Below are positions 46,469 through 64,000 of a stretch of DNA of 64,000 nt, piece after piece. Source of the stretch: an uncultured Aquimarina sp. (GTDB taxonomy: Bacteria > Bacteroidota > Bacteroidia > Flavobacteriales > Flavobacteriaceae); the NCBI RefSeq assembly GCF_947492965.1, contig NZ_CANLOZ010000006.1:124001-188000 (forward strand), written 5' to 3'. The notes under the pieces are model-generated. The model was not told where the DNA came from, searched no databases, and saw only the letters and a list, made by a program, of their open reading frames with translations. Within the stretch, counting starts at the first letter, position 1. The number at the start of each line of letters is the position of its first letter. Both the position numbers and the translations under genes were made by a program.

Positions 46469-46491
46469 TGCCAAGTTAAACATCATACCGT

Positions 46492-46515
46492 ACCCTATAA
46501 TATTAATTATAGGGT
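46492..46515 (+). terminator. Rho-independent terminator
   Basis: accctataat-atta-attatagggt followed by TTTTTT. Confidence 0.8.
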
Positions 46516-47227
46516 TTTTTTATGTTTGGTTGTTAAAATTAAGAAAAGGATTGAATGAAGCTTAAGGAAAATTGCGGGAATGTTTTTACTTGTATAAATA
46601 AACACAAAAAAGAATGATTTTGGTTTGTTTTACTAGTATAAATATCGTTTTAAGTCGTTTTATATTCAAGTAAGGATGTGCAAAATTGCATAGTAAAGTG
46701 TGTTCTTTTTTTTATATTATTTTAAGGGAAAATTCCCTAAAATATTTTTACTGACATATATTCTAGATAAGCTATAAAAATTAGTTCAAAAAAGGAATAA
46801 AAAAAAACACTTAATCGGATAAAGTTGCCGTTTTTAGATTTTTTTCAACCCTACAAAATGTCAGAATATCAATGGTTTTTTTAGGAAATTTGGATTAAAA
46901 TTTTGTTTTTTTTCAGATTTATCTACTGTTTTCCTAGTTTTTTGAACCACATTTGTTGTAAAATGATTATATTTAAGTATTTGGTTAATAATGCTTTACT
47001 ATCTTTTTAATGATGTATCAACTACGGTTTTCACACATGTAATTATTGTCTTCAACTTTTAGTAAGAATATTATTACAAAAAAAAATGAAAATTTGGTTT
47101 GATATAAATTTTTAATTTATAATTTTATGACTTTAGTATATTTATATTAACAATATTATTAACAAACGCCCCAAATCGTTTGATTAGTAGTGCATATTTT
47201 CACACGTATTTAAGTGATATAATCGCT

Positions 47228-49288
47228 ATGAGAAGGAAACTTAACTTAGTCTTTGTCTTGATTGTTTTGGCTCTTGGATTTCAAGAAGCCTTTGCCCAAG
47301 TACGAAATATTGGGGCTCCTACTTTGGTATCAGGTGCTCAGGCTTGTGGTACATTAACTAATAGTTTCGACTTTACAGCGGATTTGTCAGCAGGTGCTGC
47401 GTTAGATTCAAACAATCAATTCATTTTACAACTTTCCAATCCTTCTGGAAGTTTTGCAAATGCATCCGAAATTACGGATTTAGCCTCAGCAGATGGTCCT
47501 AATGAAGCAAGTGGCGCAGGAGCGGTTATTGAATTTTTTGATGTCACGGTACCTCAGGATGCAAATAGTGACGATTACAGATTAAGAGTGATCGCTACAG
47601 ATACCAATGCTACTATACTAAATGAAATATCTGATCCAATTCCATTTCATTTTTTTGATGATGATAATCTTTTAATTCGTTTGAATAGCGGTGACGATAT
47701 CATTTTTTGTAATGTGGCTTCATTCGCTAAAGAAGTTGCGGTTGTTGTTCTAGATCAAAATAATAATGAGGTAGATGTTAATAGTTTTAACTGGGAATGG
47801 TTAAGAGATGGAGCATTAATACCTGGTGAAAATAGTCCAAGGCTACTGATAACGGAAGAAGGAGATTACCAAGCACGAGTTTCGGTGGGTTTATGTAACA
47901 ATGTTTTTGTTTTCAATAAATCAAATAGAATATCCGCATCTTTGGTAAACCAAGGGGAAATTTCTATTGTTACAACAGCTCCGGATTTTTCTTTTTGTCC
48001 AGATGAGACGAAGATTTTACGAGCTAGTGTGGAAGATCCTTCATATGGCTATCAATGGAGTAAAGATGGAGAAGAATTGGAAGGCGAGGTATTATCTTTT
48101 TTAGTTCTACCTGATAATGATTTTGGTGGTGAATACGTTTTACAGATCGAGCTTAGTGAAGATTGTACTTTACCAACACCTCCAGTAACCGTTACAAATG
48201 AAGGATCGAGTATTACAACTCCTTTACCACCAGGATTGGTACTACTACCAACACAAATATTAACACTAACTGTAGAGACGGATGCCCCAATAGGAAGTAC
48301 ATTTAGGTGGATACGTGATACTAATATCATAATTCAAGGAGTTACTACTGGCTCAACTATTACGTTCGATGTTCCTGCAAATGGAGTAGGAGATTATAGA
48401 TTAGAAATTGATGCTTTATTTCCGGATGATCCTTGTATGTCAGAACTAGTAACAGAAACGGTTGTGGTAGCAGCAGAAAGATTTGATATAACGATTGCTC
48501 CTGGAGAGGTCGTCGACTGTGACCAGGATACCATAACCATTGCTTTAGAAGAAATGGTAGGTATCACATCTACTAACGACCGAGTTCCTTTAACTACAGA
48601 ACAATTTGATTTTTTTGATTTTGAGTGGTTTAATGATGGAGTCTCTACAGGTGAGACTTCTTTGTCATTAGATGTTTCTCGTGCTGATAATGGAGGAAGT
48701 TTCGAGTTGAGGGCTATTTTTAATCCAGGAGGTTTACCAGATACGGTTTCTAACAATTTACCTATTGACTTTTTATCCAATAGCATTGTTTTAGATATAA
48801 ATCCTGCTGTTTTGGAAGATGGACAAACAGTTACGCTAACAGCTCCAGCGAGTACCAATTTTACGTATGAGTGGTATGTAATTCAAAATGGGACAGAAGT
48901 ATTAATCGATGGAGAAACAACCAATACGTTAACGGTTTCTGAAGAAGGAGATTACTTTGCAAGAATAAGTTCCTCTTTATGTACTACAGATACACTAATA
49001 GCAGAAGTTAGAGGACCTGGAGCATTATCAGAATTAATACCGAATGTCGTAACACCCGGAGGAAATGCTGCAAACAATTCATGGGTTTTGCCAAATTCCT
49101 TTACAGATAATGATGTCGAAGTAAGCATATATTCATCCAACGGAAAGTTAGATTTCCAAAAGAATGGTGGCTATAATGCTGATTGGCCAAATGAGTCTGC
49201 CTCACAAGCAAGTGAACTTATTTACTATTATATAATATCAAGAAGTAATACAGTTGTTAAAAAGGGGACAATTACAGTAATGAGATAA
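47228..49288 (+). CDS. Secreted multi-Ig-like domain protein with T9SS type B / gliding-motility-associated C-terminal domain
   Basis: Signal peptide MRRKLNLVFVLIVLALGFQEAFAQ; repeated WxxDG..GDYxxRxSxxxC Ig-like modules; C-terminus ELIPNVVTPGGNAANNSWVLPNSFTDNDVEVSIYSSNGKLDFQKNGGYNADWPNESASQASELIYYYIISRSNTVVKKGTITVMR. Confidence 0.85.
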   Translation: MRRKLNLVFVLIVLALGFQEAFAQVRNIGAPTLVSGAQACGTLTNSFDFTADLSAGAALDSNNQFILQLSNPSGSFANASEITDLASADGPNEASGAGAVIEFFDVTVPQDANSDDYRLRVIATDTNATILNEISDPIPFHFFDDDNLLIRLNSGDDIIFCNVASFAKEVAVVVLDQNNNEVDVNSFNWEWLRDGALIPGENSPRLLITEEGDYQARVSVGLCNNVFVFNKSNRISASLVNQGEISIVTTAPDFSFCPDETKILRASVEDPSYGYQWSKDGEELEGEVLSFLVLPDNDFGGEYVLQIELSEDCTLPTPPVTVTNEGSSITTPLPPGLVLLPTQILTLTVETDAPIGSTFRWIRDTNIIIQGVTTGSTITFDVPANGVGDYRLEIDALFPDDPCMSELVTETVVVAAERFDITIAPGEVVDCDQDTITIALEEMVGITSTNDRVPLTTEQFDFFDFEWFNDGVSTGETSLSLDVSRADNGGSFELRAIFNPGGLPDTVSNNLPIDFLSNSIVLDINPAVLEDGQTVTLTAPASTNFTYEWYVIQNGTEVLIDGETTNTLTVSEEGDYFARISSSLCTTDTLIAEVRGPGALSELIPNVVTPGGNAANNSWVLPNSFTDNDVEVSIYSSNGKLDFQKNGGYNADWPNESASQASELIYYYIISRSNTVVKKGTITVMR

Positions 49289-49291
49289 TTT

Positions 49292-52200
49292 ATGATAAAA
49301 AAAATACTCTATATATCTATTTTCATTTTTTGTGCACATCTAGTATCTGCACAAGATGGATCTTCTAATACATCAGGTATATTACCTTCGGATATTCCTT
49401 TACATAATTCTTTAAAATATAATAGGTTTTTGTTTAATCCTACCTTTTCTTTAGTAAGAGAAAACAAAAACTCTATAAACATCTATAATAGAAACCCTCG
49501 TTCCAGTTTTAGCGATAATTCTCAGACATATTTTCTTAATTATTCCGCGAGATTTGAAGAAAAAACAGGAATTGGAATTGGATTATTTCAACAGAATGTT
49601 GGAATTTTTAGGTTTTTTGGGACTACATTAAATTATGCATACAATCTCGAACTAAACAGAGATATGAATTTCACTTTTGGTGTAAATTTAAATTATTCTC
49701 AAAGTGCTTTAAAAAGTAACCTAGACCAAGCACAAGCAAATGATGACATCATAAATAATTATGAAAACAGTTCGGTTTTTCTTCTTAGACCAGGTGTAAA
49801 TTTTAATTACGGAAGTTTTGATGTAGGGGTTTCTGTTGGAAATTTAGTTACTTATAATGTTACGGCTAGTGAATTGCTTACAGATAATTTCGAATATTCT
49901 GGACATGTAATGTATACTACTGAATTGGATTGGAGAAGAACAGAAAACGAATTAAGAGGGATGGTTTACGCCTCTAAACCAGGTGAGCAAGATTTAAGAT
50001 ATGGTGGAAACGTGTTATTTGAAATTCAAAAATATGGATGGGCTCAATTAGGTTATAATAGTTTCTATGGAGGATCAATAGGTATAGGTGCTAATATTAC
50101 CAAAGTGGTTTCTGTGGGATATACTGTAGAACCTGGAATTGGAGGAGATGCAAGTGTAGCAGAATTTGGCGCAACTCACGAATTTGGTTTAGCATTTAAT
50201 TTCGCTAAAGAAGAGCGTAGAAGAAAAAGAAGAAACTTATCATCAAAAAGTTCTTTACAAAGAGATTCTGAAATAAGAAGATTGAAGAAAGAAATTTTAG
50301 ATCAAAATAAACTAATAAGAGAATTACAAAGTACTAGGAATGACTCTCTAAGTCAGGCTCAACGAGCTATGAATAAATTAGAGAGATCAATTCAGGAAGC
50401 AAAAGAAGAGGAAGCGAGAAAGGCAAGAGAGCTTGCGCTACAGAGAGAAGAGGAAGTAAAATTACTGAATAAGAAAAAAGAAGAAGAGCTTGCTGCTCAA
50501 AGGAAATTGGAGTTGGAGATGGCTGAGCAAAAAGCAGAAGAAGAAAGATTAGCAGCACAGAAGAAGATTCAGTTAGAATTAGCTGAGCAGAAAAAAGCAG
50601 AAGAAGAAAAAGAAGCTCAAGAAGCGGCAGCGAGAGAAGCAGAAGAAGCAAGAATAGCTGCTGAAGAAGAAGCTGGAAGACAAGCTGAGGAGGCAAGAAT
50701 AGCTGCTGAAGAAGCTGCCAGAGAAGCGGAAGCAGAAAGACAAGAAGCAGAAGCGGAAGCAGAGGCTGAAGCGAAAAGACAAGCTGAAGAAGCAGCTAAA
50801 GAGGAAGAGGCTAGACAAGCACAAATTGCTGAGGCAGAAGCTAAGCAAAAAGCAGAAGAAGAAGAGCAATTAGCTGCACAGAAAAGGCTAGAACAGGAGA
50901 TGGCAGCGCAAAAGGCAGAAGAAGAGCGATTAGCTGCACAGAAAAAGCTTGAGTTGGAGATTGCAGAACAACGAGCTGAGGAAGAAAGATTAGCCTCTCA
51001 GAAAAAACTGGAGCAGGAAATGGCCGAGCAGAGAAGAAGAGAGCAATCTCAGAAATCATTAGAAAGAGAAGTTTCTGTACAGAAAGATGAAGAAGAGAGA
51101 TTACGTCAGGAAGCAGAATCTGCTAGATTAGCTGAGGAAGAGAGATTACGTCAAGAGGCTGAGGCTGCTAGATTAGCTGAAGAAGAGAGATTACGTCAAG
51201 AAGCAGAAGCTGCTAGACTTGCTGAAGAAGAAAGACAACGTCAAGAAGCTGAGGCTGCTAGATTAGCTGAAGAAGAGAGATTACGTCAAGAAGCGGAGGC
51301 TGCAAGACTAGCTGAAGAAGAAAGACAACGTCAAGAAGCTGAGGCCGCTAGATTAGCTGAAGAAGAGAGATTACGTCAAGAGGCTGAGGCTGCTAGATTG
51401 GCTGAGGAAGAGAGATTACGTCAAGAAGCTGAGGCTGCTAGATTGGCTGAGGAAGAGAGATTACGTCAAGAAGCTGAGGCTGCTAGATTAGCTGAAGAAG
51501 AAAGACAACGTCAAGAAGCTGAGGCTGCTAGATTGGCTGAGGAAGAGAGATTACGTCAAGAAGCTGAGGCTGCTAGATTAGCTGAAGAAGAAAGACAACG
51601 TCAAGAAGCTGAGGCTGCTAGACTTGCTGAGGAAGAAAGACAACGTCAAGAAGCTGAGGCTGCTAGATTGGCTGAGGAAGAAAGACAACGTCAAGAAGCT
51701 GAGGCTGCCAGACTAGCTGAAGAAGAAAGACAACGTCAGGAAGCAGAAGCTGCAAGACTTGCTGAGGAAGAAAGACAACGTCAAGAGGCAGAAGCTCAAG
51801 AAGATAGTAGTGAAGATCTTGAACAGATTCAGAGAGAAATCGATAATAGTAGTAGAATTACTGATAGATTGATTGCATCTAGAGATTCCTTATTAACTTC
51901 TTCTGTGAATCTAGATAAAAGAGAATTTAATAAACTATTAGAATCTCTTGTTAATATGAGTGATGAAGCTGAACAGGTGAAAAACAATCCTGATCCAAGT
52001 AGCTCGAAAAGATTAACTTCTAGAAATAGATTTATCAAGTTCGCTGAAGCTACTAGACCAGAAGCTAAGTATGCAACTAAATATATTCCTGGATATCCAG
52101 AAGGATACTACCTAATAGGTAATGTGTTCAGAGGTGGAGTATATGCAGAAAGTTTTACGAATAAGTTAAAAGATCTTGGATTTAATGATGCTCAAGTGAT

Positions 52201-52681
52201 TCTAAATCCAGAAAATCAGTATCAATATGTTGCTATTACGTATTATGCAAATAAAGAAGAAGCAGCTGAGAATTATCTGAATAATATTGGAAACAAATAC
52301 TTTGGTGATATGTGGATCTTAAATATTGCTAAAAGTAGAGTAGAATCATTGAAAAGATTAGTGCAAGAATCACGTATTATAAAAGATACAGTTAAAGACG
52401 ATACCGTATTAACAGAGAATCTGTCATATATCGGAGGACATAATATTGAAAACGGATATTATTTAATTACCAATATCTTTAAAAGAGAAAATTATTTTGA
52501 ACGAGGAATGAATCAACTTAGATCTCAGGGGCTAGAGCCTAAGTTTTTCAGGAATCCAAAAGACAATTACATATATGTGTATTTAGATAGGTTTGATAGT
52601 ATTGATCAAGCAAAACAGAGTTTATTCTCTAATGTAAATAACACATACGACGGAGATCTATACATTTTAAAGATACAATAG
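49292..52681 (+). CDS. PorP/SprF-like outer-membrane protein fused to long Glu/Ala/Arg helical repeat region and two C-terminal SPOR-like domains
   Basis: Signal peptide ...IFCAHLVSAQ; LPSDIPLHNSLKYNRFLFNPTFSLVRENKNSINIYNRNPRSSF...GIGLFQQNVGIF PorP-like; EEERLRQEAEAARLA repeats; GYYLIGNVFRGGVYAESFTNKLKDLGF... and GYYLITNIFKRENYFERGMNQLRSQGL.... Confidence 0.85.
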   Translation: MIKKILYISIFIFCAHLVSAQDGSSNTSGILPSDIPLHNSLKYNRFLFNPTFSLVRENKNSINIYNRNPRSSFSDNSQTYFLNYSARFEEKTGIGIGLFQQNVGIFRFFGTTLNYAYNLELNRDMNFTFGVNLNYSQSALKSNLDQAQANDDIINNYENSSVFLLRPGVNFNYGSFDVGVSVGNLVTYNVTASELLTDNFEYSGHVMYTTELDWRRTENELRGMVYASKPGEQDLRYGGNVLFEIQKYGWAQLGYNSFYGGSIGIGANITKVVSVGYTVEPGIGGDASVAEFGATHEFGLAFNFAKEERRRKRRNLSSKSSLQRDSEIRRLKKEILDQNKLIRELQSTRNDSLSQAQRAMNKLERSIQEAKEEEARKARELALQREEEVKLLNKKKEEELAAQRKLELEMAEQKAEEERLAAQKKIQLELAEQKKAEEEKEAQEAAAREAEEARIAAEEEAGRQAEEARIAAEEAAREAEAERQEAEAEAEAEAKRQAEEAAKEEEARQAQIAEAEAKQKAEEEEQLAAQKRLEQEMAAQKAEEERLAAQKKLELEIAEQRAEEERLASQKKLEQEMAEQRRREQSQKSLEREVSVQKDEEERLRQEAESARLAEEERLRQEAEAARLAEEERLRQEAEAARLAEEERQRQEAEAARLAEEERLRQEAEAARLAEEERQRQEAEAARLAEEERLRQEAEAARLAEEERLRQEAEAARLAEEERLRQEAEAARLAEEERQRQEAEAARLAEEERLRQEAEAARLAEEERQRQEAEAARLAEEERQRQEAEAARLAEEERQRQEAEAARLAEEERQRQEAEAARLAEEERQRQEAEAQEDSSEDLEQIQREIDNSSRITDRLIASRDSLLTSSVNLDKREFNKLLESLVNMSDEAEQVKNNPDPSSSKRLTSRNRFIKFAEATRPEAKYATKYIPGYPEGYYLIGNVFRGGVYAESFTNKLKDLGFNDAQVILNPENQYQYVAITYYANKEEAAENYLNNIGNKYFGDMWILNIAKSRVESLKRLVQESRIIKDTVKDDTVLTENLSYIGGHNIENGYYLITNIFKRENYFERGMNQLRSQGLEPKFFRNPKDNYIYVYLDRFDSIDQAKQSLFSNVNNTYDGDLYILKIQ
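51089..51796 (+). repeat. 45-bp (15-aa) tandem repeat array, 16 units (last partial)
   Basis: EEER[L/Q]RQEAEAARLA unit repeated; near-identical codon usage across units. Confidence 0.95.
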
Positions 52682-52707
52682 TGAGTAGTACCCCAAAATA
52701 TACTAGA

Positions 52708-55700
52708 ATGAACAACACAACTCAAACAAAGCAGCTTATGAAAACACTATTACCCAAAAAAGCTGTACTAATAATAGCGGTGATTATTATTGGTGCCATA
52801 AGCAAGATGAACGCGCAGGAATCAGTTCCTTTAACCCCAAGAGCAGGAGCCCAGTTTAATAACCTTAGGGGTAACATGGTGATGACAGGTAATGATATTG
52901 TTGGTGTTATTGAAGATTCAAACGGTAACACTTTTACTAACCCTAATCGAAACTACAACGGTAATGCTAATAACGGAAACTATGTTACTGCTTTTATAGA
53001 TGTGGATAATGATCCTACTACATTTAGTTCTAGTGAAGCAGGTTTAACTGTTCCAAGAGAAGATTGTAGCCGACTAGTGTATGCTGGACTGTATTGGTCT
53101 GCGAATTATTATATGGCTCGAAGAAATAGCCCTAATAATTTTTCCAACGATCAAATTTCTAGTAACTCTGATACGAATACTGCATTGATCATTAATAACG
53201 GTCCATTAGCACAGCAGTATACGGTTAGAAATTCGGAGTTTGATAATGATATTTCTGATATTCAATTAAGTCCTGTTACCTCTTATATGGTCGTTGCACA
53301 ACCGGTAAATGGATGCGGTATTACTAATGCTGCCGAGTTAGCAGGTAATATTGCGGTTATCAGAGAAGGAGGCAGCTGTTCTTTACGAGAAAAAGTAGTC
53401 AATGCTGAAAACGCCGGAGCGGTCGGTGTAGTTATAGTAAATACAAATGGTAATCTTCCAAGAATGACTGGAAATGGGCCACAGATTACAATTCCCTCTG
53501 TGTCCATTGGTAATAATGATATTACAAATGCTAATTTTACTGGGGGAGATTTAATACCGTTATTACAGGCTGAGACACATGTAGTTTTGGGTACATTGTC
53601 TACAGACCAAGGAGATGATATTTTAACAGGGTTACCGCTTACAGATCCTAGAAAACAGGGTCCTGCTGATTTTAGAAATATAAAGTTTAAAGTACCTGGT
53701 GGTTCTTATATAGATGTAACAGCAAGTAGTGTGGTATTTGATGGATATCGTAATACACCAACAAACCCTTTGGGAGATGCTGCTAATGATGAATTGCCTT
53801 ATGTGTGTTATGCAGATGTTACAGCCTTATTAGACCCAGATAATCCATTTGGTACCTATACGGTTGCAAACATGAATGCGACCCAAGGATTTTCTAGTGG
53901 TGGTGATGGTGCCTGTGGAGGATGGTTTCTAGTAGCATATTACGAAGATCAACAGGAAACAGCAAAGTTTATAAGTACAAGTGATGGGTTTGTTCAGATC
54001 TTTAGAGACCAAGCTCCATTGCGTTTTACATATAGCGGATTTACTACTCCTACAGGAGCTAATGAACCAGTGAGTGTACGATTTGGTACCTCTTCATTAG
54101 AAGGAGATACAAGTTTAGGAGGAGATCAATTACGAATTATAAACACTTCTGGTAACCCTACAGCACTAGGGCAAGGAAATGCATCTGCGAATCCAACAAC
54201 TAACTTCTTTAACGGATCTATTTCGGTAAATGGTAATTACATAACTGATCGAACACCAAACTCTGAAAATACACAAGGGTTTGATATGGATTTGTTCGAG
54301 TTGCCGAATGATTCAAAGGATCTTGTGGATAATGGTCAAACTTCGGCTACTTTTGAATTATTTACAAATGCTGATCGTTATAGTGTATTTTTTAATGCAT
54401 TTTCTGTAACTATTATCGAACCAGAATTACGGATCATTAAAAGAGTCTTTGAGTTAGATGGATCTACCGAGATAACAGGTGGAAATGTAGAGTTGGGTGA
54501 TGAGATATTCTACGATTTAGAAATTGAAAATATAGGTAATGAGGATTTTGTAGATGGAACGGTTACAATTACCGATGTTCTCCCTGCAAATACTAACTTA
54601 TTAGGAGTTGTAGATGCTACTTTGCCACCAGGAGTTACGTATACTGAGATATCACCAGGAGTTTTACAATTTAATATTCCAGCAGATCTGGTAGAAACAC
54701 CAAACGATGCTCCTGTTGGAGATGGAGATGCCCCAATTTTTATAAGATTTAGAGCACAGTTGGTTAGCAGTTGTGAGGAACTTAGAGATGCATGTTCTGA
54801 TGTAATTACAAACTCTGCAACAGCAACCTACACTGGATTACAATCTGGAACAATGGGAAGTACCACAAGTAGTTCTCAGGTGGGAGTCTGTGGTGATCAA
54901 GAAAACGAAGCTTCAAACATACTTGTAAATATACCAGCATGTCAGTTAGATGTTACTTTTTGTGATGATGATTTATTATTAGTCGCAGGTACAGGTTATA
55001 ATCAGTACACTTGGTCTGGACCTGGGATTACAACGCCTGTGGTAACAAATGTTAATTTTTACCAGGTTCCTAATCCACAAACGGGAGTATATACTGTGCT
55101 TAAAGAAGATACAGATGGTGTGGAACCAAGTTGTATGGCTCTTACGGAAGAATTTACAGTAACTGCTTTTAGAGATATTACTAACCCAGTCTTAGATTAT
55201 GTAAATGGAACTACTATAGTAACAGAAGATTGTAGCGGTATACCGATTCCACAAATTCTATTATGTGGTGATCAAACACAACTATTAGAAACAAATTTTG
55301 ATCCATCTACGTTAGACGATATTTCATGGCAGAGACTAACTCCATCAGGATCTTGCGTACTAGATCCAAATGACCCATGTTCTTTGTTAGATGGTAACTG
55401 TACAGATGCAAATTGGGTAGAAGTAACAGGAGGTGATACACCTAACTATACCGTTTCCGAAGCGGGAGATTATAGAATCTTAGCAGAGTTTGATGGAGGA
55501 TGTATTATTCCTTTCTATTTTAGTGTATTTAAAAATGATTACCAGCCAGATTTAACCATGAATCCGATAGAGTGTGGTAGTGATGGTAGTGTTAGTGTGG
55601 TTAATGTACCTACTAACTTTGCGTTTAGTTTAACTTCTGGAGGCCCATACACAAATACGACAGGGGTTTTTCCAATATCTACAGCTGGTGATGTAACCGT

Positions 55701-58700
55701 ATATGCAATTGATACTACATTTCCTGGATGTGAGTATTCAGAAACCATAAATGTACCTTCTATAGATCCAACTTTTAGTGTAACTGGAGTTGATCCAAGT
55801 TGTGTAAATAACGATAATGGTACTGGTGTCGGTAGAATTAATATTAGCGTAACTGGTGGTATACCTGAATATCAGTATACTATTTCTAGTCCTGCATTAG
55901 GAGCTGCTGATCCAATAATAGTCCCTAATAGCAGTGCTAATAATGGTAATTATACACAGAATAATTTACCTCCTGGAACGTATACTGTTGAAGTGATTTC
56001 AAACAGACCAACACCAGAGTGTGTTTTTGATGCGACAGTTACTATTAATCCAGCTCCAGCTTTTGATGCTGAGGTGGTGTTATTAGCTCCAGAAACTTGT
56101 GATAGTGGAGCATTGGTACAAGTAAACGTTTTAAATGGTTCGGGGAATTACTTATTTGATAATGGAGATGGAAATTTTGTAGCTTGTAATATTTTTGAAA
56201 TACCTTCTCCTGCAGACCCTACAGCAACATATACATTTAGAGTAAGTGATCAAAATATTCCAAGTGGAACAGCTGCTTGTATTATATCAGCAAGTATTGA
56301 TAATATTACACCGTACGAACCTATAGTAATTGATAATGTTACGGTTACCCAGCCTGCATGTCCTGGAGATACTGGTCAAATTCAAGTGGATGTTTCTCCA
56401 ACAGTCGCTGGTAGATTATATACCTATCAATTATGGGATTGTGCCGCGGATCCAAATTGTGGAAATGGGATTAGTGACCCTGCTGATCCGTTGAATGATG
56501 AAGATCCTAGTTTATGGACTTTAGTTAATGATATCGGTCCTACGGGAAGCCAAACAGTTACATTTACAGGAGTTCCAGATGGCAATTCATATGTGGTTCA
56601 AGTCGTTCACGCGAATACTACACCAGTAATTAATAATCCGAACTGTACATTCCCAGCACCTGAGGCTACCATATGTCCAGTAACAGAATACGGATTTTCT
56701 ATCAGCTCTCCTGTAGGAATTACAGCTGATGTTACTTTAGACAGACCACTAAGTTGTATTGTAGGAAGTGAGGATGCATTAATATTGGTTGATAATATTG
56801 CTGGAGGTTCTGGAACATATGAATGGAGTTTAGACAATGTTACTTTTACCAATATCACTACAACTCCTTTTACAATTCCAGTAAGTACAGATGGGTCTTA
56901 TACGGTGTATATAAGAAATCAAGGTTCAGGAGATTGTGCAGTTCCATTCCCAGTAAATGTTCCTGCATTGGTTCCAATTACTGCAATTACGTTTACTCCA
57001 GGTGATGGAGATTGTAATAGTCAAAGTTCAGAAGTTACCTTTGAAGCGCAACCTGCATTATCTGCAGCAGATATTTCGGCAGGTGTAGTATATGAGTATG
57101 ATGTTTCTCCAGATCCTGCAACCGGAGCAGCTGCAACCGGAAACACAGGTTTCTTAACAACAAATACCTATACAATAACACAGGGAATTACGTATACAGT
57201 TACCGCCAGAAGAAGTGATGATCAATGTACATTTAGTGATGATTATAGAGTAGATGTAATAGATCCAATAGAGATTACTAATGCAGTGGAAACAACACCT
57301 GTTGTCTGTGTTGGAGATAGTAATGGAGCTTTATCTTTTACGGTTACGAATAGTACTTCTTTCGATTATGTTGTTACATTAACATCTAGTGGAGCTGTTG
57401 TAGATTCTGGAAATGGAATTACTACAAGTCCTGTAAATGTAACAGGATTAGCAGCAGGAAATTATACAATAACGGTTACAGATACCAATCCAGGTGGATC
57501 AGGTTCACCATTAAATTGTTCTGATACAGCAACTGTAGATGTAACAGAACCTGCAACACCACTAACATTCACAACCGTTGCTACAGACACAAATTGTGGT
57601 GCTAATACAGGTACTATTACCGTAACAGCTAACGGAGGTAGAGGAAATTATCAATATAGATTAGTAGATAGCGGAGGAACAGTGATTGTTGATTATCCTA
57701 ATACTAACAACACTTTTACTGGCTTAGCAGCTGACACCTACACTGTTTTTGTTAGAGATGGTAGTAATCCAGCTACGGCTTGTGAGATTAGCAATACAGA
57801 AACTATAGGAACATTCGCTTCACCAACTATTGCTTTAACTGCTGGTGGAGATGTTTGTTATGACGGAACAAATCAGGCAAGTCAAATAATTACAATTACT
57901 CCTGGAATTGATCCTCCTCTTGGTCCATTTGAATATATTTTGGATAGAGGTACAGGACCAGAAACTCCAGTAGCGATTACATTAACAACGCCACCTTATA
58001 CATTTGAAATAACAGGATTGACTCCTGGAAATTATACAGTGTTTGTAAGAAATACGAATACACAATGTATTACGAATACAGAAAGTTTCACAATAAATCC
58101 TGAACTTACAATTACAGCGGTTCTAGATAAAGATATCGACTGTAATGGTGATGCTGAAATATCATTTACAGCAGCGGACGGAAGTGGAACGTATACTCAA
58201 TATGACTTATATGTTCAAGGAACACCACCTGTTCTATCGCAGGCTAATATTACATCGGTTCATACGATAGGAACACCTGGTGTTTATTTGGTACAGGTTA
58301 CTGATGATTTAGGATGTACAGCATTTTCTAATCCTGTTACGGTTACCGCATATGAAGCATTAGCGGCTACCCCTTCGGTAACAAACCCAGATTGTCCAGC
58401 AGATGGAGGAGACATTACAATAACAACAACCGCGGGTGAAGGACCATTTACTTATGTGTTAGATGGTACTACAACGATAGGCCCTACTAGCGATACTTCT
58501 GTAACGTTTAACAATGTTGCTGTGGGTACACACACCGTAGTAGTAACTGATGGTTCTGGAGGAACTCCTGCTTGTACCTTAGATCTTACAAATATTCAAA
58601 TAACTGCGCCGACACCTATCTCTACTACTGCTAGCGAAACGCAAGAGTATCGTTGTGATGTGGCAGGGTCAAGTACGACTCCTCAGTTAGGAGAAATTAC

Positions 58701-61700
58701 TGTGGTAGTACCAACAACAGGAACGCCACCTTATGAATATAGTATTGATGGTGTAAACTGGCAGGCATCAAATGTATTTACTGGTTTAACGGATGGTATT
58801 TATACAATACAGGTTCGAGATGCTGCAACAGTATCTTGTCCAGTTACGTTAGCTCCAGTTACAATAGATCCATTAGTACAGGTTACAGATTTATCTTTTG
58901 CAGTTACTCAAGTGCAATGTCCAGCACTTACAGGAGATGTTACCATTACTCCAACTTTAAATGGAACTAGTACTGTAGAATATGAAATTACCGCTCCTAT
59001 AACCGTAGGGCCTCAAGCTTCGAATGTGTTTACTGGACTTACTTCAGGAACTACCTATACATTCTTAGCAAGAACGGACGTTGATGGTTGTGTATATACG
59101 GAAACATTTACGGTACCTACAGTTGACTTTATAGCGGTTAATGCTACTATTGTAAATGAGCCATTGTGTAATGGACAAAGTAATGGAGAATTATCTTTTA
59201 CTGTTTTAGGAATTGATTTAACTACAGAAACTTATGAATATGAAGTTTCTCTTGGAGGAACAATCGTAGCACAAGCTACGGGTCAGAATACTGCAACCAT
59301 CCTTACAGGTGATATTTTAGCAGCAGGAACTTATGACATTTTAGTTACAGATGAAAGAACTAACTGTACAGATACTGCGCAGGTGATCATTGGAGAACCT
59401 GATGTGATCACCTTTACAATTGATCCTATCGATCAGGATTGTGCTACAAATACAAATACAGTAACTATTAGCAATGTAATGGGTGGAAGTGGAGTTGGCT
59501 ATACTTGGATATTAAATGATTCTGGAGGAACTCCAGTAGGTCCAAGTAGACCAGTTACAGACCCTTACTTAAACGTTCCTAATGGAACGGGATATGAAAT
59601 TATAGTTACAGATAGTAATTCTTGTGTATCTGCACCTCAGAATTTAGATATTAATCAATTACCACAAATTGCCGCTACGATCGATGCTGGTTCAGATTTC
59701 TGTTTAGATGACGGCGCGGTGAGTTTTACCATAAATATAGATGGAACAAATTCTGGAACACCAGATTACATTTATAACGTTTCACTTGGTGGAACGATTG
59801 TAATACCTGATACCAATGTAGGAGCATTAACTACGTTTACTACAACACCTGCATTAACGCAAGCAGGTACATATACCATTACAATTACTGATAGTAATGG
59901 ATGTCCTGTTACACTTACAGAGACTATAGAAGAAGCTGTAAGCTTAGATGTTACTCAAGTTGCTGATATAACTTGTGATGCGTCAGGTAATCCAGTGGAT
60001 GCTTCTTTCTCATTCGTGGTAAATGGAGGATATACACCATACGATATTGCTGTATCATTCAACGGAGGAGCATTTGTAGATCATATTACAAATGGAACGG
60101 CACCATTTGCTAATTATGTGGCTACATCAGGAGCTGGAACATACGTTTTCAGAGTTACTGATGATAGAGGATGTTCTTTTACAACGTCTCCTTTTACAGT
60201 TACAGATCCAGTGGCTCCGACAATCACTGCACCACTTGTAAATGTGGATTGTTTTGGAGATACAGGTACGGCTGTGATAACTGTTACAGGAACAGAAACC
60301 CCATATGAAATTGATTTCGGAAATACAACGACTTTCGTGCCAATTACGGGTACACAAATAACTTTCCCTAATTTAGCCGAGAATACTTATAGCTTTACTG
60401 TAAGAAGTAGTAGAGGGTGTTTATATCCAGGAACTGTAGAAATTGCTGCTCCAGATGAGATACTAGAGGTAAGTAGAGTGGAAACACCTGTTACTTGTGG
60501 TGGATCTGTTATTATTACAGACCTTGGAGCTATAGATCTTACAATATCTGGAGGAACAGGACCATATACGTATACGTTGGTCGATGCAAGTAATGTGTCG
60601 GTAAGACCATTAGTGCCTTCTACAACAGCCGCATCAACACCAAATCCTACTACGATTGCTTCAACAACTGTTCGTTTTGAAGGTTTAAATTTTGGTCAAT
60701 ACTTTATTTTTGTAGAAGATGCAAACGGCTGTGTGTCTAATCCTGACCCTATTGGTCCTGCAGGTGGTCCATCAGAACCATTTAATATTTTCTCTCCGCC
60801 TACGGATTTAGTGCAAAATATTACTGTATCGGCTACGTGTCCAGGAGGAGTAACATTCGATATTGATGTACAAGGAGGTTCTGGTATAAATCCTCCAGCA
60901 AACCCACCACCTGGATTTGATATTCGTATTGTGGGAGAACCATCACCAGGCTTAGGAGATTTTGTTCCTTTAAACGATCTGGTAACTGGACCAACAGCAG
61001 TGGATGCGAATACGCCAATCAGAAATCATAGATATACAGGATTAGATTTTAATAGAACCTATATTTTAGAAGTAAGAGATAATGCAACTAATTGTTTGTA
61101 TCAAGAGTTAGTTGCTCCTGTGGATCCTCCTTCTTCTCCTAATATTGATAATTTTGTTGCTACTGATGTAACTTGTAATGAGGTCCCTGCATTAGACGAC
61201 GGAGAAATCAGTTTTGAAATTTCTGGATATGATCCTACGGTTACACAAGTCTCTTGGGAGGTGTTTGATCAATTTACTAATGTTTCTTTAGGAGCTGGTT
61301 TTTCAGGTTCTTCTGCGGTTGTAAGTCCTGCGGCTCTTCCAGTGACAATTTCTAACTTCCCTCCAGGAAATTATTACCTAGTAATTAGGGAAGATAATGG
61401 AACTTTATGTCCAAACAGACAAGACTTTGTAATTGACATTCCGGATCCATTAACTTCGGTTGCTACCAACCTTACAGCTGCCAATAGTTGTGGTACAAAC
61501 GCACAAGTAATTATGGATACAGATGGTGGAACACCATTTGCTATTCCTCCAACAGCTGATGGATACACGTACGAAGTAGTTGCTAACGGAGCGGGTGATC
61601 CAGGAGTATACACACTAAATAGTAATGTAATCGATCTAGGTAATGTAGCTGGTGACTTTGACATCTGGGTAGCTGATCTGAATGGATGTAGTTTTGGACC

Positions 61701-64000
61701 AGTGGATGTTACTGTAGTGGTAAACCCATTACCAACGGTAGTTGCTAGTTTTATTGATGATTGTACATACGATAATAGTAATATCATTGATGTAGATGGA
61801 ACAGGTTTGGGAACTTTATTATATCAAATAGATGGCGGAACTGCTGTTACAGGTAGTATTGATAACAATAACCATGAGTTTATTGTATCTACTCCAGGAA
61901 CCTATACAATTACGGTTACAGATGAGTCAGGATGTTCTGCAAGTACAAATGTTACCGTATATGACGAATTAGTGATTAGTGCAGCATTTACTGCGGCTCC
62001 AGATTGTGAAACCGCGGATGGAGAAATAACAGCAACTATTACATCTGGTAATGATCAAGGAGCTTTGACATTTGAACTACAGGACTCCTTCGGAGGTGTT
62101 GTTCAAGCAGGAGTTGTAGGAACGAGTCCATTCTTATTTACAGGAGTAGCACCAGGAGATTACGTTGTTGTAGTTACCGATGCTGGAAGAGGAACAGCTC
62201 CTTTTTGTTCGTTCTCTGCACCAGTTAGTATTGATGCACCAACACCACCAGTATTAGTACCAGAGACAACATTTGTTACTTGTATTGGTGATACTGATGG
62301 TGTAATTACAGCTGCATTAACTGGACCTTCTACAGATTCGGACCCAACAGTTATTTATGAATATAGAATTTCTGCACCAGTAGCAAATGTAACTCCATTC
62401 CAAACAAGTCCTGTATTCTCAGGTTTGGGTATTGGAACGTATACTATTGAAGTAAGGGTTACTAAGCCAAACGGAGCTTTAAATGTGATTTGTTTGGATA
62501 CTGAAGATTATATAATCGATCAGCCTACATTTGCTACAGCTAGTGTTACTTTAGAGTCCCCATATGGATGTACTGGGGCTGATATTAATTTACCTGTAAT
62601 TACAGTAGATAACTTTAGTGGAGGTAATTCACCATATACTATTTCATATACAGATCCATCTGGAAATGTGGTGGGTCCTGTAGATCCTGCAACATTGGAT
62701 ACAGATTCAGGAATAGCAGGTATTCAGATTATAGCGAATGAAGCTGGTAATTACACTTTCACAATCTTTGATACTAATGATTGTCCGAATGTATTAGCAC
62801 CGTTTAATATACCTCCATTCCCGATAATGACGGATGCGGTAGTTAATCAGGTAACACCAATTGATTGTGCTACAAATACTGAAGAAGTTACAGTAACAGT
62901 AACTGGAGGAACAGGACCATATGATTTTGTTGAAATTAATGGAGCAGTTCCTTCTCAATTAGGAGTTGCGTCAGGAGGTGCGACTACTACTAGTGCATCA
63001 TTCTTCCTTCCTGGAGTTGGTAATTATATCTTTAGGGTAACGGATACAGGAACTGGTTGTTCAATAGAAACAGCTCCTTATGAAATATTGCCTTATGATA
63101 CTATTGAAGCTAATATTGCAGTAGTTACTCCAGATATTCTATGTTTTGGGGACGCAACTGGTAATATAGAACTTACGGTTACTGGACATACAGGGCCTTA
63201 TAATTATACAGTGACTAATACTACAACAGGTACGGTTACCGGACCAATAGGAGCGGATACTACTGTACAGAACCCAATTACCATTAGCGGTCTCGAAGCA
63301 GGTAATATTCAGGTGTCTATTGTGGATCCTGCATCTACCTGTAATGATGACTCAAATGTCGTTACAATTAACCAGCCTACAGAAGTATTATTAAGTTTGA
63401 TTTCGAACACAAATGCTGATTGTAATAGCGATGGAAGAGTTGTTGTAGAAGCAAGTGGAGGAACTTCTCCTTACACGTTTACAGCAACCGATGTGCCTTT
63501 TGGAGGAACATTTACAGCTACAAATAGCACAGGAGAATTCTTATTGCCTGCATTACCAACTACTGGAACAACGTATAGAATTTCTGTAGTTGACGATAAT
63601 AGTTGTACATCTAATCCTGCATCAATAGACGTGTTGGTAGAAAGAACAGATGATCCAACATTGAATCCACTAACGGTGGACGATGTATGTACTCATGATG
63701 GAAGCTATGTGATCACAGCGACAGGAACGAGCAACGTACCAGCGCCAGGAACTGGTGCTTTAAGGTTCCAGTTAGACGGAGGTACTATAGTAGATGCAAA
63801 TAATGGATTAAATTCTCACTTATTTACGGTGTCTACATCAGGAACATATCAAGTGACTGCTTACGACGAAAATAACTGTCCTACAAATACAGAATCGATT
63901 ACTATTTTACCAGAATTGATTGCTTCAGCTGATTTTACTGCTGATCCTACTTGTAGAGATTTCGACGGAACGGTAACGGTTACTGTTTCTGGAGGTTCAG
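52708..64000 (+). CDS. Giant cell-surface adhesin (SprB-like repeat protein) with PA and DUF11-like domains; 3' end beyond window
   Basis: ATG at 52708 (MNNTTQTKQLMKTLLPKKAVLIIAVIIIGAISKMNAQ) in frame 1; sampled translation stays open to FDGTVTVTVSGGS at the window edge. More than 25 modules of type xxCxxDGxxxVxVxGGxxPYxYxx. Not in ORF track because no stop occurs in the window. Confidence 0.93.
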   Translation, partial: MNNTTQTKQLMKTLLPKKAVLIIAVIIIGAISKMNAQESVPLTPRAGAQFNNLRGNMVMTGNDIVGVIEDSNGNTFTNPNRNYNGNANNGNYVTAFIDVDNDPTTFSSSEAGLTVPREDCSRLVYAGLYWSANYYMARRNSPNNFSNDQISSNSDTNTALIINNGPLAQQYTVRNSEFDNDISDIQLSPVTSYMVVAQPVNGCGITNAAELAGNIAVIREGGSCSLREKVVNAENAGAVGVVIVNTNGNLPRMTGNGPQITIPSVSIGNNDITNANFTGGDLIPLLQAETHVVLGTLSTDQGDDILTGLPLTDPRKQGPADFRNIKFKVPGGSYIDVTASSVVFDGYRNTPTNPLGDAANDELPYVCYADVTALLDPDNPFGTYTVANMNATQGFSSGGDGACGGWFLVAYYEDQQETAKFISTSDGFVQIFRDQAPLRFTYSGFTTPTGANEPVSVRFGTSSLEGDTSLGGDQLRIINTSGNPTALGQGNASANPTTNFFNGSISVNGNYITDRTPNSENTQGFDMDLFELPNDSKDLVDNGQTSATFELFTNADRYSVFFNAFSVTIIEPELRIIKRVFELDGSTEITGGNVELGDEIFYDLEIENIGNEDFVDGTVTITDVLPANTNLLGVVDATLPPGVTYTEISPGVLQFNIPADLVETPNDAPVGDGDAPIFIRFRAQLVSSCEELRDACSDVITNSATATYTGLQSGTMGSTTSSSQVGVCGDQENEASNILVNIPACQLDVTFCDDDLLLVAGTGYNQYTWSGPGITTPVVTNVNFYQVPNPQTGVYTVLKEDTDGVEPSCMALTEEFTVTAFRDITNPVLDYVNGTTIVTEDCSGIPIPQILLCGDQTQLLETNFDPSTLDDISWQRLTPSGSCVLDPNDPCSLLDGNCTDANWVEVTGGDTPNYTVSEAGDYRILAEFDGGCIIPFYFSVFKNDYQPDLTMNPIECGSDGSVSVVNVPTNFAFSLTSGGPYTNTTGVFPISTAGDVTVYAIDTTFPGCEYSETINVPSIDPTFSVTGVDPSCVNNDNGTGVGRINISVTGGIPEYQYTISSPALGAADPIIVPNSSANNGNYTQNNLPPGTYTVEVISNRPTPECVFDATVTINPAPAFDAEVVLLAPETCDSGALVQVNVLNGSGNYLFDNGDGNFVACNIFEIPSPADPTATYTFRVSDQNIPSGTAACIISASIDNITPYEPIVIDNVTVTQPACPGDTGQIQVDVSPTVAGRLYTYQLWDCAADPNCGNGISDPADPLNDEDPSLWTLVNDIGPTGSQTVTFTGVPDGNSYVVQVVHANTTPVINNPNCTFPAPEATICPVTEYGFSISSPVGITADVTLDRPLSCIVGSEDALILVDNIAGGSGTYEWSLDNVTFTNITTTPFTIPVSTDGSYTVYIRNQGSGDCAVPFPVNVPALVPITAITFTPGDGDCNSQSSEVTFEAQPALSAADISAGVVYEYDVSPDPATGAAATGNTGFLTTNTYTITQGITYTVTARRSDDQCTFSDDYRVDVIDPIEITNAVETTPVVCVGDSNGALSFTVTNSTSFDYVVTLTSSGAVVDSGNGITTSPVNVTGLAAGNYTITVTDTNPGGSGSPLNCSDTATVDVTEPATPLTFTTVATDTNCGANTGTITVTANGGRGNYQYRLVDSGGTVIVDYPNTNNTFTGLAADTYTVFVRDGSNPATACEISNTETIGTFASPTIALTAGGDVCYDGTNQASQIITITPGIDPPLGPFEYILDRGTGPETPVAITLTTPPYTFEITGLTPGNYTVFVRNTNTQCITNTESFTINPELTITAVLDKDIDCNGDAEISFTAADGSGTYTQYDLYVQGTPPVLSQANITSVHTIGTPGVYLVQVTDDLGCTAFSNPVTVTAYEALAATPSVTNPDCPADGGDITITTTAGEGPFTYVLDGTTTIGPTSDTSVTFNNVAVGTHTVVVTDGSGGTPACTLDLTNIQITAPTPISTTASETQEYRCDVAGSSTTPQLGEITVVVPTTGTPPYEYSIDGVNWQASNVFTGLTDGIYTIQVRDAATVSCPVTLAPVTIDPLVQVTDLSFAVTQVQCPALTGDVTITPTLNGTSTVEYEITAPITVGPQASNVFTGLTSGTTYTFLARTDVDGCVYTETFTVPTVDFIAVNATIVNEPLCNGQSNGELSFTVLGIDLTTETYEYEVSLGGTIVAQATGQNTATILTGDILAAGTYDILVTDERTNCTDTAQVIIGEPDVITFTIDPIDQDCATNTNTVTISNVMGGSGVGYTWILNDSGGTPVGPSRPVTDPYLNVPNGTGYEIIVTDSNSCVSAPQNLDINQLPQIAATIDAGSDFCLDDGAVSFTINIDGTNSGTPDYIYNVSLGGTIVIPDTNVGALTTFTTTPALTQAGTYTITITDSNGCPVTLTETIEEAVSLDVTQVADITCDASGNPVDASFSFVVNGGYTPYDIAVSFNGGAFVDHITNGTAPFANYVATSGAGTYVFRVTDDRGCSFTTSPFTVTDPVAPTITAPLVNVDCFGDTGTAVITVTGTETPYEIDFGNTTTFVPITGTQITFPNLAENTYSFTVRSSRGCLYPGTVEIAAPDEILEVSRVETPVTCGGSVIITDLGAIDLTISGGTGPYTYTLVDASNVSVRPLVPSTTAASTPNPTTIASTTVRFEGLNFGQYFIFVEDANGCVSNPDPIGPAGGPSEPFNIFSPPTDLVQNITVSATCPGGVTFDIDVQGGSGINPPANPPPGFDIRIVGEPSPGLGDFVPLNDLVTGPTAVDANTPIRNHRYTGLDFNRTYILEVRDNATNCLYQELVAPVDPPSSPNIDNFVATDVTCNEVPALDDGEISFEISGYDPTVTQVSWEVFDQFTNVSLGAGFSGSSAVVSPAALPVTISNFPPGNYYLVIREDNGTLCPNRQDFVIDIPDPLTSVATNLTAANSCGTNAQVIMDTDGGTPFAIPPTADGYTYEVVANGAGDPGVYTLNSNVIDLGNVAGDFDIWVADLNGCSFGPVDVTVVVNPLPTVVASFIDDCTYDNSNIIDVDGTGLGTLLYQIDGGTAVTGSIDNNNHEFIVSTPGTYTITVTDESGCSASTNVTVYDELVISAAFTAAPDCETADGEITATITSGNDQGALTFELQDSFGGVVQAGVVGTSPFLFTGVAPGDYVVVVTDAGRGTAPFCSFSAPVSIDAPTPPVLVPETTFVTCIGDTDGVITAALTGPSTDSDPTVIYEYRISAPVANVTPFQTSPVFSGLGIGTYTIEVRVTKPNGALNVICLDTEDYIIDQPTFATASVTLESPYGCTGADINLPVITVDNFSGGNSPYTISYTDPSGNVVGPVDPATLDTDSGIAGIQIIANEAGNYTFTIFDTNDCPNVLAPFNIPPFPIMTDAVVNQVTPIDCATNTEEVTVTVTGGTGPYDFVEINGAVPSQLGVASGGATTTSASFFLPGVGNYIFRVTDTGTGCSIETAPYEILPYDTIEANIAVVTPDILCFGDATGNIELTVTGHTGPYNYTVTNTTTGTVTGPIGADTTVQNPITISGLEAGNIQVSIVDPASTCNDDSNVVTINQPTEVLLSLISNTNADCNSDGRVVVEASGGTSPYTFTATDVPFGGTFTATNSTGEFLLPALPTTGTTYRISVVDDNSCTSNPASIDVLVERTDDPTLNPLTVDDVCTHDGSYVITATGTSNVPAPGTGALRFQLDGGTIVDANNGLNSHLFTVSTSGTYQVTAYDENNCPTNTESITILPELIASADFTADPTCRDFDGTVTVTVSGGS

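Follow-up and report, generated by a model that had tools for sequence, protein, structure and literature searches.

The locus lies at 47228..64000 of the window, the 64,000-nt stretch of DNA that was analysed (G000:C6:124001-188000), and comprises three co-directional genes on the + strand: the first encodes a type-B cargo of the type IX secretion system (T9SS), the second a PorP barrel followed by a charged helix and two SPOR-fold domains, and the third a giant adhesin with SprB repeats. The open reading frames (47228..49288, 49292..52681 and 52708 onward) agree with a sequence-only reading of the region, which had described three co-directional genes separated by 3 nt (genes 1 and 2) and 26 nt (genes 2 and 3). 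This reading had also placed about 750 bp of AT-rich DNA and a terminator upstream; the AT-rich intergenic region (46469..47227), the presumed site of the operon promoter, measures about 760 nt, has no Rfam match and contains a terminator-like hairpin (46492..46515, + strand) that is followed by a T run and closes the upstream gene. The contig continues past the window end and, when read further, reveals a fourth gene that is separated by 5 nt from the stop of the third.

The first gene, sprC, encodes 686 residues from its ATG, with a signal peptide, an Ig-like domain and a type-B (CHU_C) sorting domain, as read from the ORF and from profile matches. SprC scores 36.1 bits on Ig_7 (cut-off 27.3) and 30.3 bits on CHU_C (cut-off 27), in line with the type-B Ig-like protein proposed earlier, and 15.9 bits on TIGR04131, under the cut-off of 35. 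Its type-B CTD (49037..49276, + strand; profile and alignment with orthologs) has a degraded motif, GGNAAN, whereas the orthologs keep the canonical NGDG. The third gene, sprB (52708..64000, + strand, open at the window end), encodes a giant gliding adhesin of 5,008 residues in full: the gene ends at G000:C6:191734, with its stop 3,734 nt past the window and no internal stop in 5,008 codons. The profile content of SprB includes many SprB repeats and a PA domain (53284..53520, + strand; Pfam PA, 52.1 bits), which sits within an insertion of ~190 residues near the N-terminus; among the genomes examined, this insert is common to G425 and G405 only. Following the gene to its end, as had been suggested, we found the T9SS CTD outside the window, with 82.2 bits on TIGR04131 (cut-off 35). 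The giant SprB-like adhesin is thus confirmed, and a T9SS type-B surface-display module is supported (CHU_C in gene 1, a TIGR04131 CTD in gene 3 and a PorP-family gene 2). The fourth gene, sprF (G000:C6:191740-192717, + strand), encodes a 325-residue PorP/SprF protein (183.5 bits) whose tail, CRQSKCGCTY, carries the canonical Cys-x-Cys, a tail also found in 57/57 relatives. In G425 (L175/L176), a second SprB-like ORF directly after sprF is 71% identical to the N-terminus of SprB, which suggests a tandem sprB paralog.

The locus is therefore a run of four neighbouring genes, sprC, sprD, sprB and sprF in that order, all read in the same direction. The type-B CTD on gene 3 and the presence of SprF as gene 4 identify the set as the published gliding operon sprCDBF of Flavobacterium johnsoniae, which is credited to Rhodes et al. 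(2011) in passages of PMC9870892, PMC5879114 and PMC12635249. The description as an under-described system no longer applies; gene 4, which lay outside the view of the first reading, changes the interpretation. The operon itself, which places the giant gliding adhesin on the flavobacterial surface, is already known, and the locus is this well-conserved operon in a further member, with some variation. Gene order, type-B SprC and SprB, PorP-like SprD and SprF, the Cys-x-Cys tail of SprF and the C-terminal end of SprD are all as in F. johnsoniae, whereas the PA-domain insert of SprB and the degraded CTD motif of SprC are differences. One part of the operon is little described: SprD, a carrier in the outer membrane whose very long helical arm bears two SPOR-fold domains at its end.

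Shibata et al. (PMC9870892) listed primers for the deletion of F. johnsoniae sprD, and these can be placed on the sprD gene of [Flexibacter] sp. ATCC 35103 (L133): the site of primer 1296, with a single mismatch, precedes the stop by exactly 33 bp, and that of the reverse primer 1295, with six mismatches, has its end at base 57, both positions being as published. The published primer encodes GKMAIVK, the same as the C-terminal end of the L133 protein, a SprD ortholog of 1,598 residues that shares the barrel, the charged helix and the SPOR-like end with gene 2. The comparison, made through the primer sites of this ortholog, indicates homology between SprD and the gene that was deleted experimentally in F. 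johnsoniae. Exact primer 1296 has no match in the genome contigs searched, and a search of 400 family genomes for primer 1297, allowing up to 3 mismatches, found none either.

The operon is conserved across many genera. An alignment scan with the N-terminus of SprB gave 80 named loci, nearly all of them Flavobacteriaceae by name. Upstream sequence of at least 6 kb is available for 68 of these loci, and in 66 of them SprD precedes SprB, generally directly before it and after SprC, as would be expected from the co-conservation that had been proposed. Of the 67 SprD genes found, 64 have the SPOR-like end and three are apparently shortened by N runs or fragmentation; 53 of 54 named loci have SprF after SprB. 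Within the genus of the window, the SprD tail occurs in 46 of 55 genomes with 67–94% identity, and two single-contig genus mates carry the complete operon (71–73% identity for SprC, 86–87% for the N-terminus of SprB and 92–95% for SprF).

SprD (49292..52681, + strand) has 1,129 residues. Its outer-membrane PorP/SprF barrel (49298..50203, + strand; residues 3-304) is above both curated cut-offs of the PorP/SprF shuttle proteins, with 130.5 bits on TIGR03519 (cut-off 90.55) and 136.7 bits on PF11751 (cut-off 22.3; E = 1.4e-39), but SprD differs from these proteins by ~800 extra residues. Most of this extension is a predicted long helix (50219..52066, + strand) in which E, A, R and Q are abundant and Pro and Gly nearly absent (residues 310-925), with one Pro and one Gly in residues 331-900. 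Part of it is encoded by a 45-bp tandem repeat (51088..51786, + strand), the unit of which gives EEER[LQ]RQEAEAARLA; it counts 15.5 copies as assembled in a 40-contig assembly, so that the exact copy number may differ. That the array is an assembly artefact was considered and set aside, as the SprD proteins of the single-contig genus mates have 1,126 and 1,130 residues. Across orthologs, the helical part varies from ~300 to ~1,200 residues; the L133 protein, with 1,598 residues overall against 1,129 here, has a longer helix. The mature SprD is Cys-free, as are 75/77 SprD orthologs beyond residue 30. Searches of PDB sequences with the SprD barrel, the SprD tail, a tail profile and SprF gave no meaningful match. 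The other nine PorP genes of the genome are open frames of 306-361 residues without a long extension, SprD being ~800 residues longer. The ten carriers (L035-L043 among them) are of three kinds: SprF, L040 and L043 have a Cys-x-Cys tail, six are short and lack it, and SprD is armed.

The tail of SprD comprises two units that share 35% identity, unit 1 at 52103..52327 and unit 2 at 52454..52675 (both + strand). The PorP part of the PorP–helix–SPOR fusion claimed by the sequence-only reading holds, while its SPOR part is borderline by profile: the isolated tail scores 21.4 bits on Pfam SPOR (PF05036; cut-off 21), and a scan of the full-length protein reported no SPOR match. Orthologous tails score up to 26.8 bits, several of them above the cut-off. 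In the AlphaFold model, the tail folds into two SPOR topologies, with a mean pLDDT of 73 for the whole and of 84 for unit 2 taken alone, and both units are predicted to have an RNP-like fold, with an antiparallel sheet and two helices on one side. Foldseek ranks DedD first for unit 2 (probability 1.00), with the SPOR domains of CwlC, RlpA, FtsN and DamX lower in the list, none of the SPOR matches of unit 2 or of the whole tail having E <= 0.001. A SPOR fold is thus supported by these predictions for the tail units. Most named loci have one such unit, as do the Flavobacterium orthologs L133, L142 and L143, whereas there are two here and in several other genera.

SPOR domains are typically peptidoglycan-binding, and in RlpA the residues that contact denuded glycan are Gln270 and three arginines. 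SprD shares with this family the fold and, in several orthologs, an above-cut-off Pfam score, but not these contact residues. In an alignment with two recognised SPOR domains of the same genome, the SprD units have no glycan-contacting Gln, both candidate positions being occupied by I/V or G/T/A/I; with the same reference domains, neither the SprD units here nor those of relatives have an Arg at the aligned basic-patch positions. This apparent loss is read from sequence only, and the units may still be compatible with peptidoglycan binding.

How do the two carriers relate to the two cargos? According to PMC12618676, a type-B cargo is the cognate partner of the PorP-like carrier whose gene lies directly downstream; the natural pairs are therefore SprC–SprD and SprB–SprF, the former being, from gene order, most likely. 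The sequence-only reading had proposed gene 2 as a dedicated exit and anchor for both gene 1 and gene 3. The first half most likely stands, but we rejected gene 2 as the carrier of gene 3: SprB owns SprF (53/54 loci), and SprD most likely serves SprC only. In F. johnsoniae, a disulfide ties the Cys-x-Cys tail of SprF to GldK, a component of the moving track. The genome analysed here contains GldJ and GldK, both far above cut-off, and the number and spacing of Cys276 and Cys332 of GldK resemble the two described non-lipid cysteines. Without Cys in its mature part, SprD is unable to use a disulfide of the SprF–GldK type. A passage of PMC12635249, which cites a thesis, nevertheless describes SprC as moving on the gliding track, and the helix–SPOR arm is therefore a plausible coupling element between SprC–SprD and the track.

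From its genes, we hold it highly probable that this is the gliding operon in which SprB is held by GldK-linked SprF, while SprD most likely carries SprC and would dock non-covalently by its arm. SprB would be exported by the T9SS and then stay bound to its carrier SprF, the Cys-x-Cys tail of which would form, to judge from the conserved parts, a disulfide with GldK in the moving track. SprC would be the smaller type-B cargo, with SprD, encoded directly downstream, as its most likely dedicated carrier. In place of a periplasmic Cys, the arm of SprD would dock SprC–SprD non-covalently on the track or on the adjacent cell wall, and the docked SprC would travel with and support the SprB machinery. 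More tentatively, SprD may stand for a second, Cys-free means by which a T9SS carrier is coupled to the moving track: a long helical arm whose SPOR-fold domains have been repurposed to bind a track protein and not glycan.

What the arm contacts can be read in several ways. It is possible, if somewhat short of probable, that the arm binds the track lipoproteins GldJ, GldK or GldN directly, as a non-covalent stand-in for the cysteine link of SprF. The SPOR fold without a glycan-binding signature is consistent with this, as is a track-mobile SprC, even though 75/77 SprD orthologs are Cys-free compared with C-x-C in 57/57 for SprF. On the other hand, an arm that ranges from ~300 to ~1,200 residues argues against a ruler-like fit, and we know of no SPOR domain that binds these lipoproteins. 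Somewhat less likely is that the arm spaces or guides the track, touching peptidoglycan only transiently and without binding it firmly; the degenerate glycan site would agree with this, as would a very long, strongly charged and Pro-poor helix whose length is changed by tandem repeats, but the good conservation of the tail (67–94% in the genus) suggests a specific partner. A fixed peptidoglycan-to-outer-membrane anchor for both gene 1 and gene 3, and with it the continuous linkage from peptidoglycan to adhesin first proposed, is very unlikely: it would suit the SPOR fold of the tail, the bridging of Porphyromonas gingivalis PorP to peptidoglycan by PorE (PMC9143113) and the SprD-like SPOR units that PorE-like OmpA proteins have in other genera, but SprB has its own SprF, and a static tether is at odds with the missing RlpA-type contact residues (no conserved Gln in any aligned unit and no Arg at any aligned basic-patch position) and with the mobility of SprC reported in a passage of PMC12635249.

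Among known systems, the PorE–PorP–PG1035 complex of P. gingivalis (PMC9143113) is close to the arrangement proposed for SprD. In that complex, as proposed here, a PorP barrel holds a type-B cargo; there, however, PorP is linked to a separate periplasmic, peptidoglycan-binding OmpA-type protein, whereas in SprD the SPOR-fold arm is fused in cis. The literature searched contained no paper combining PorP, a SPOR domain and type IX secretion. The SprF–GldK disulfide model leaves unexplained how a Cys-free SprD lets SprC ride the same track, and the contrast between SprF (C-x-C in 57/57) and SprD (75/77 without Cys in the mature part) sets a clear question that is testable in a gliding laboratory strain.

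Units related to the SprD tail also occur outside sprD. In other genera, PorE-like proteins with PD40 and OmpA domains (L046:8221-11016, minus strand, and L050:6193-8724) have such SPOR-like units near their N-terminus; a search with the tail found no PorE-like protein with units of this type in the genome of the window. In this genome, L045:6559-8686 (G000:C3, ~256.6-258.7 kb, minus strand) consists of an ORF of ~609 residues, putatively M56/BlaR1-like, and after it, in a different frame, a unit with 62% identity to SPOR unit 2 of SprD. In genus mates, ORFs of ~700 residues in a single frame match the same unit, and the L045 copy may therefore be frameshifted or misassembled.
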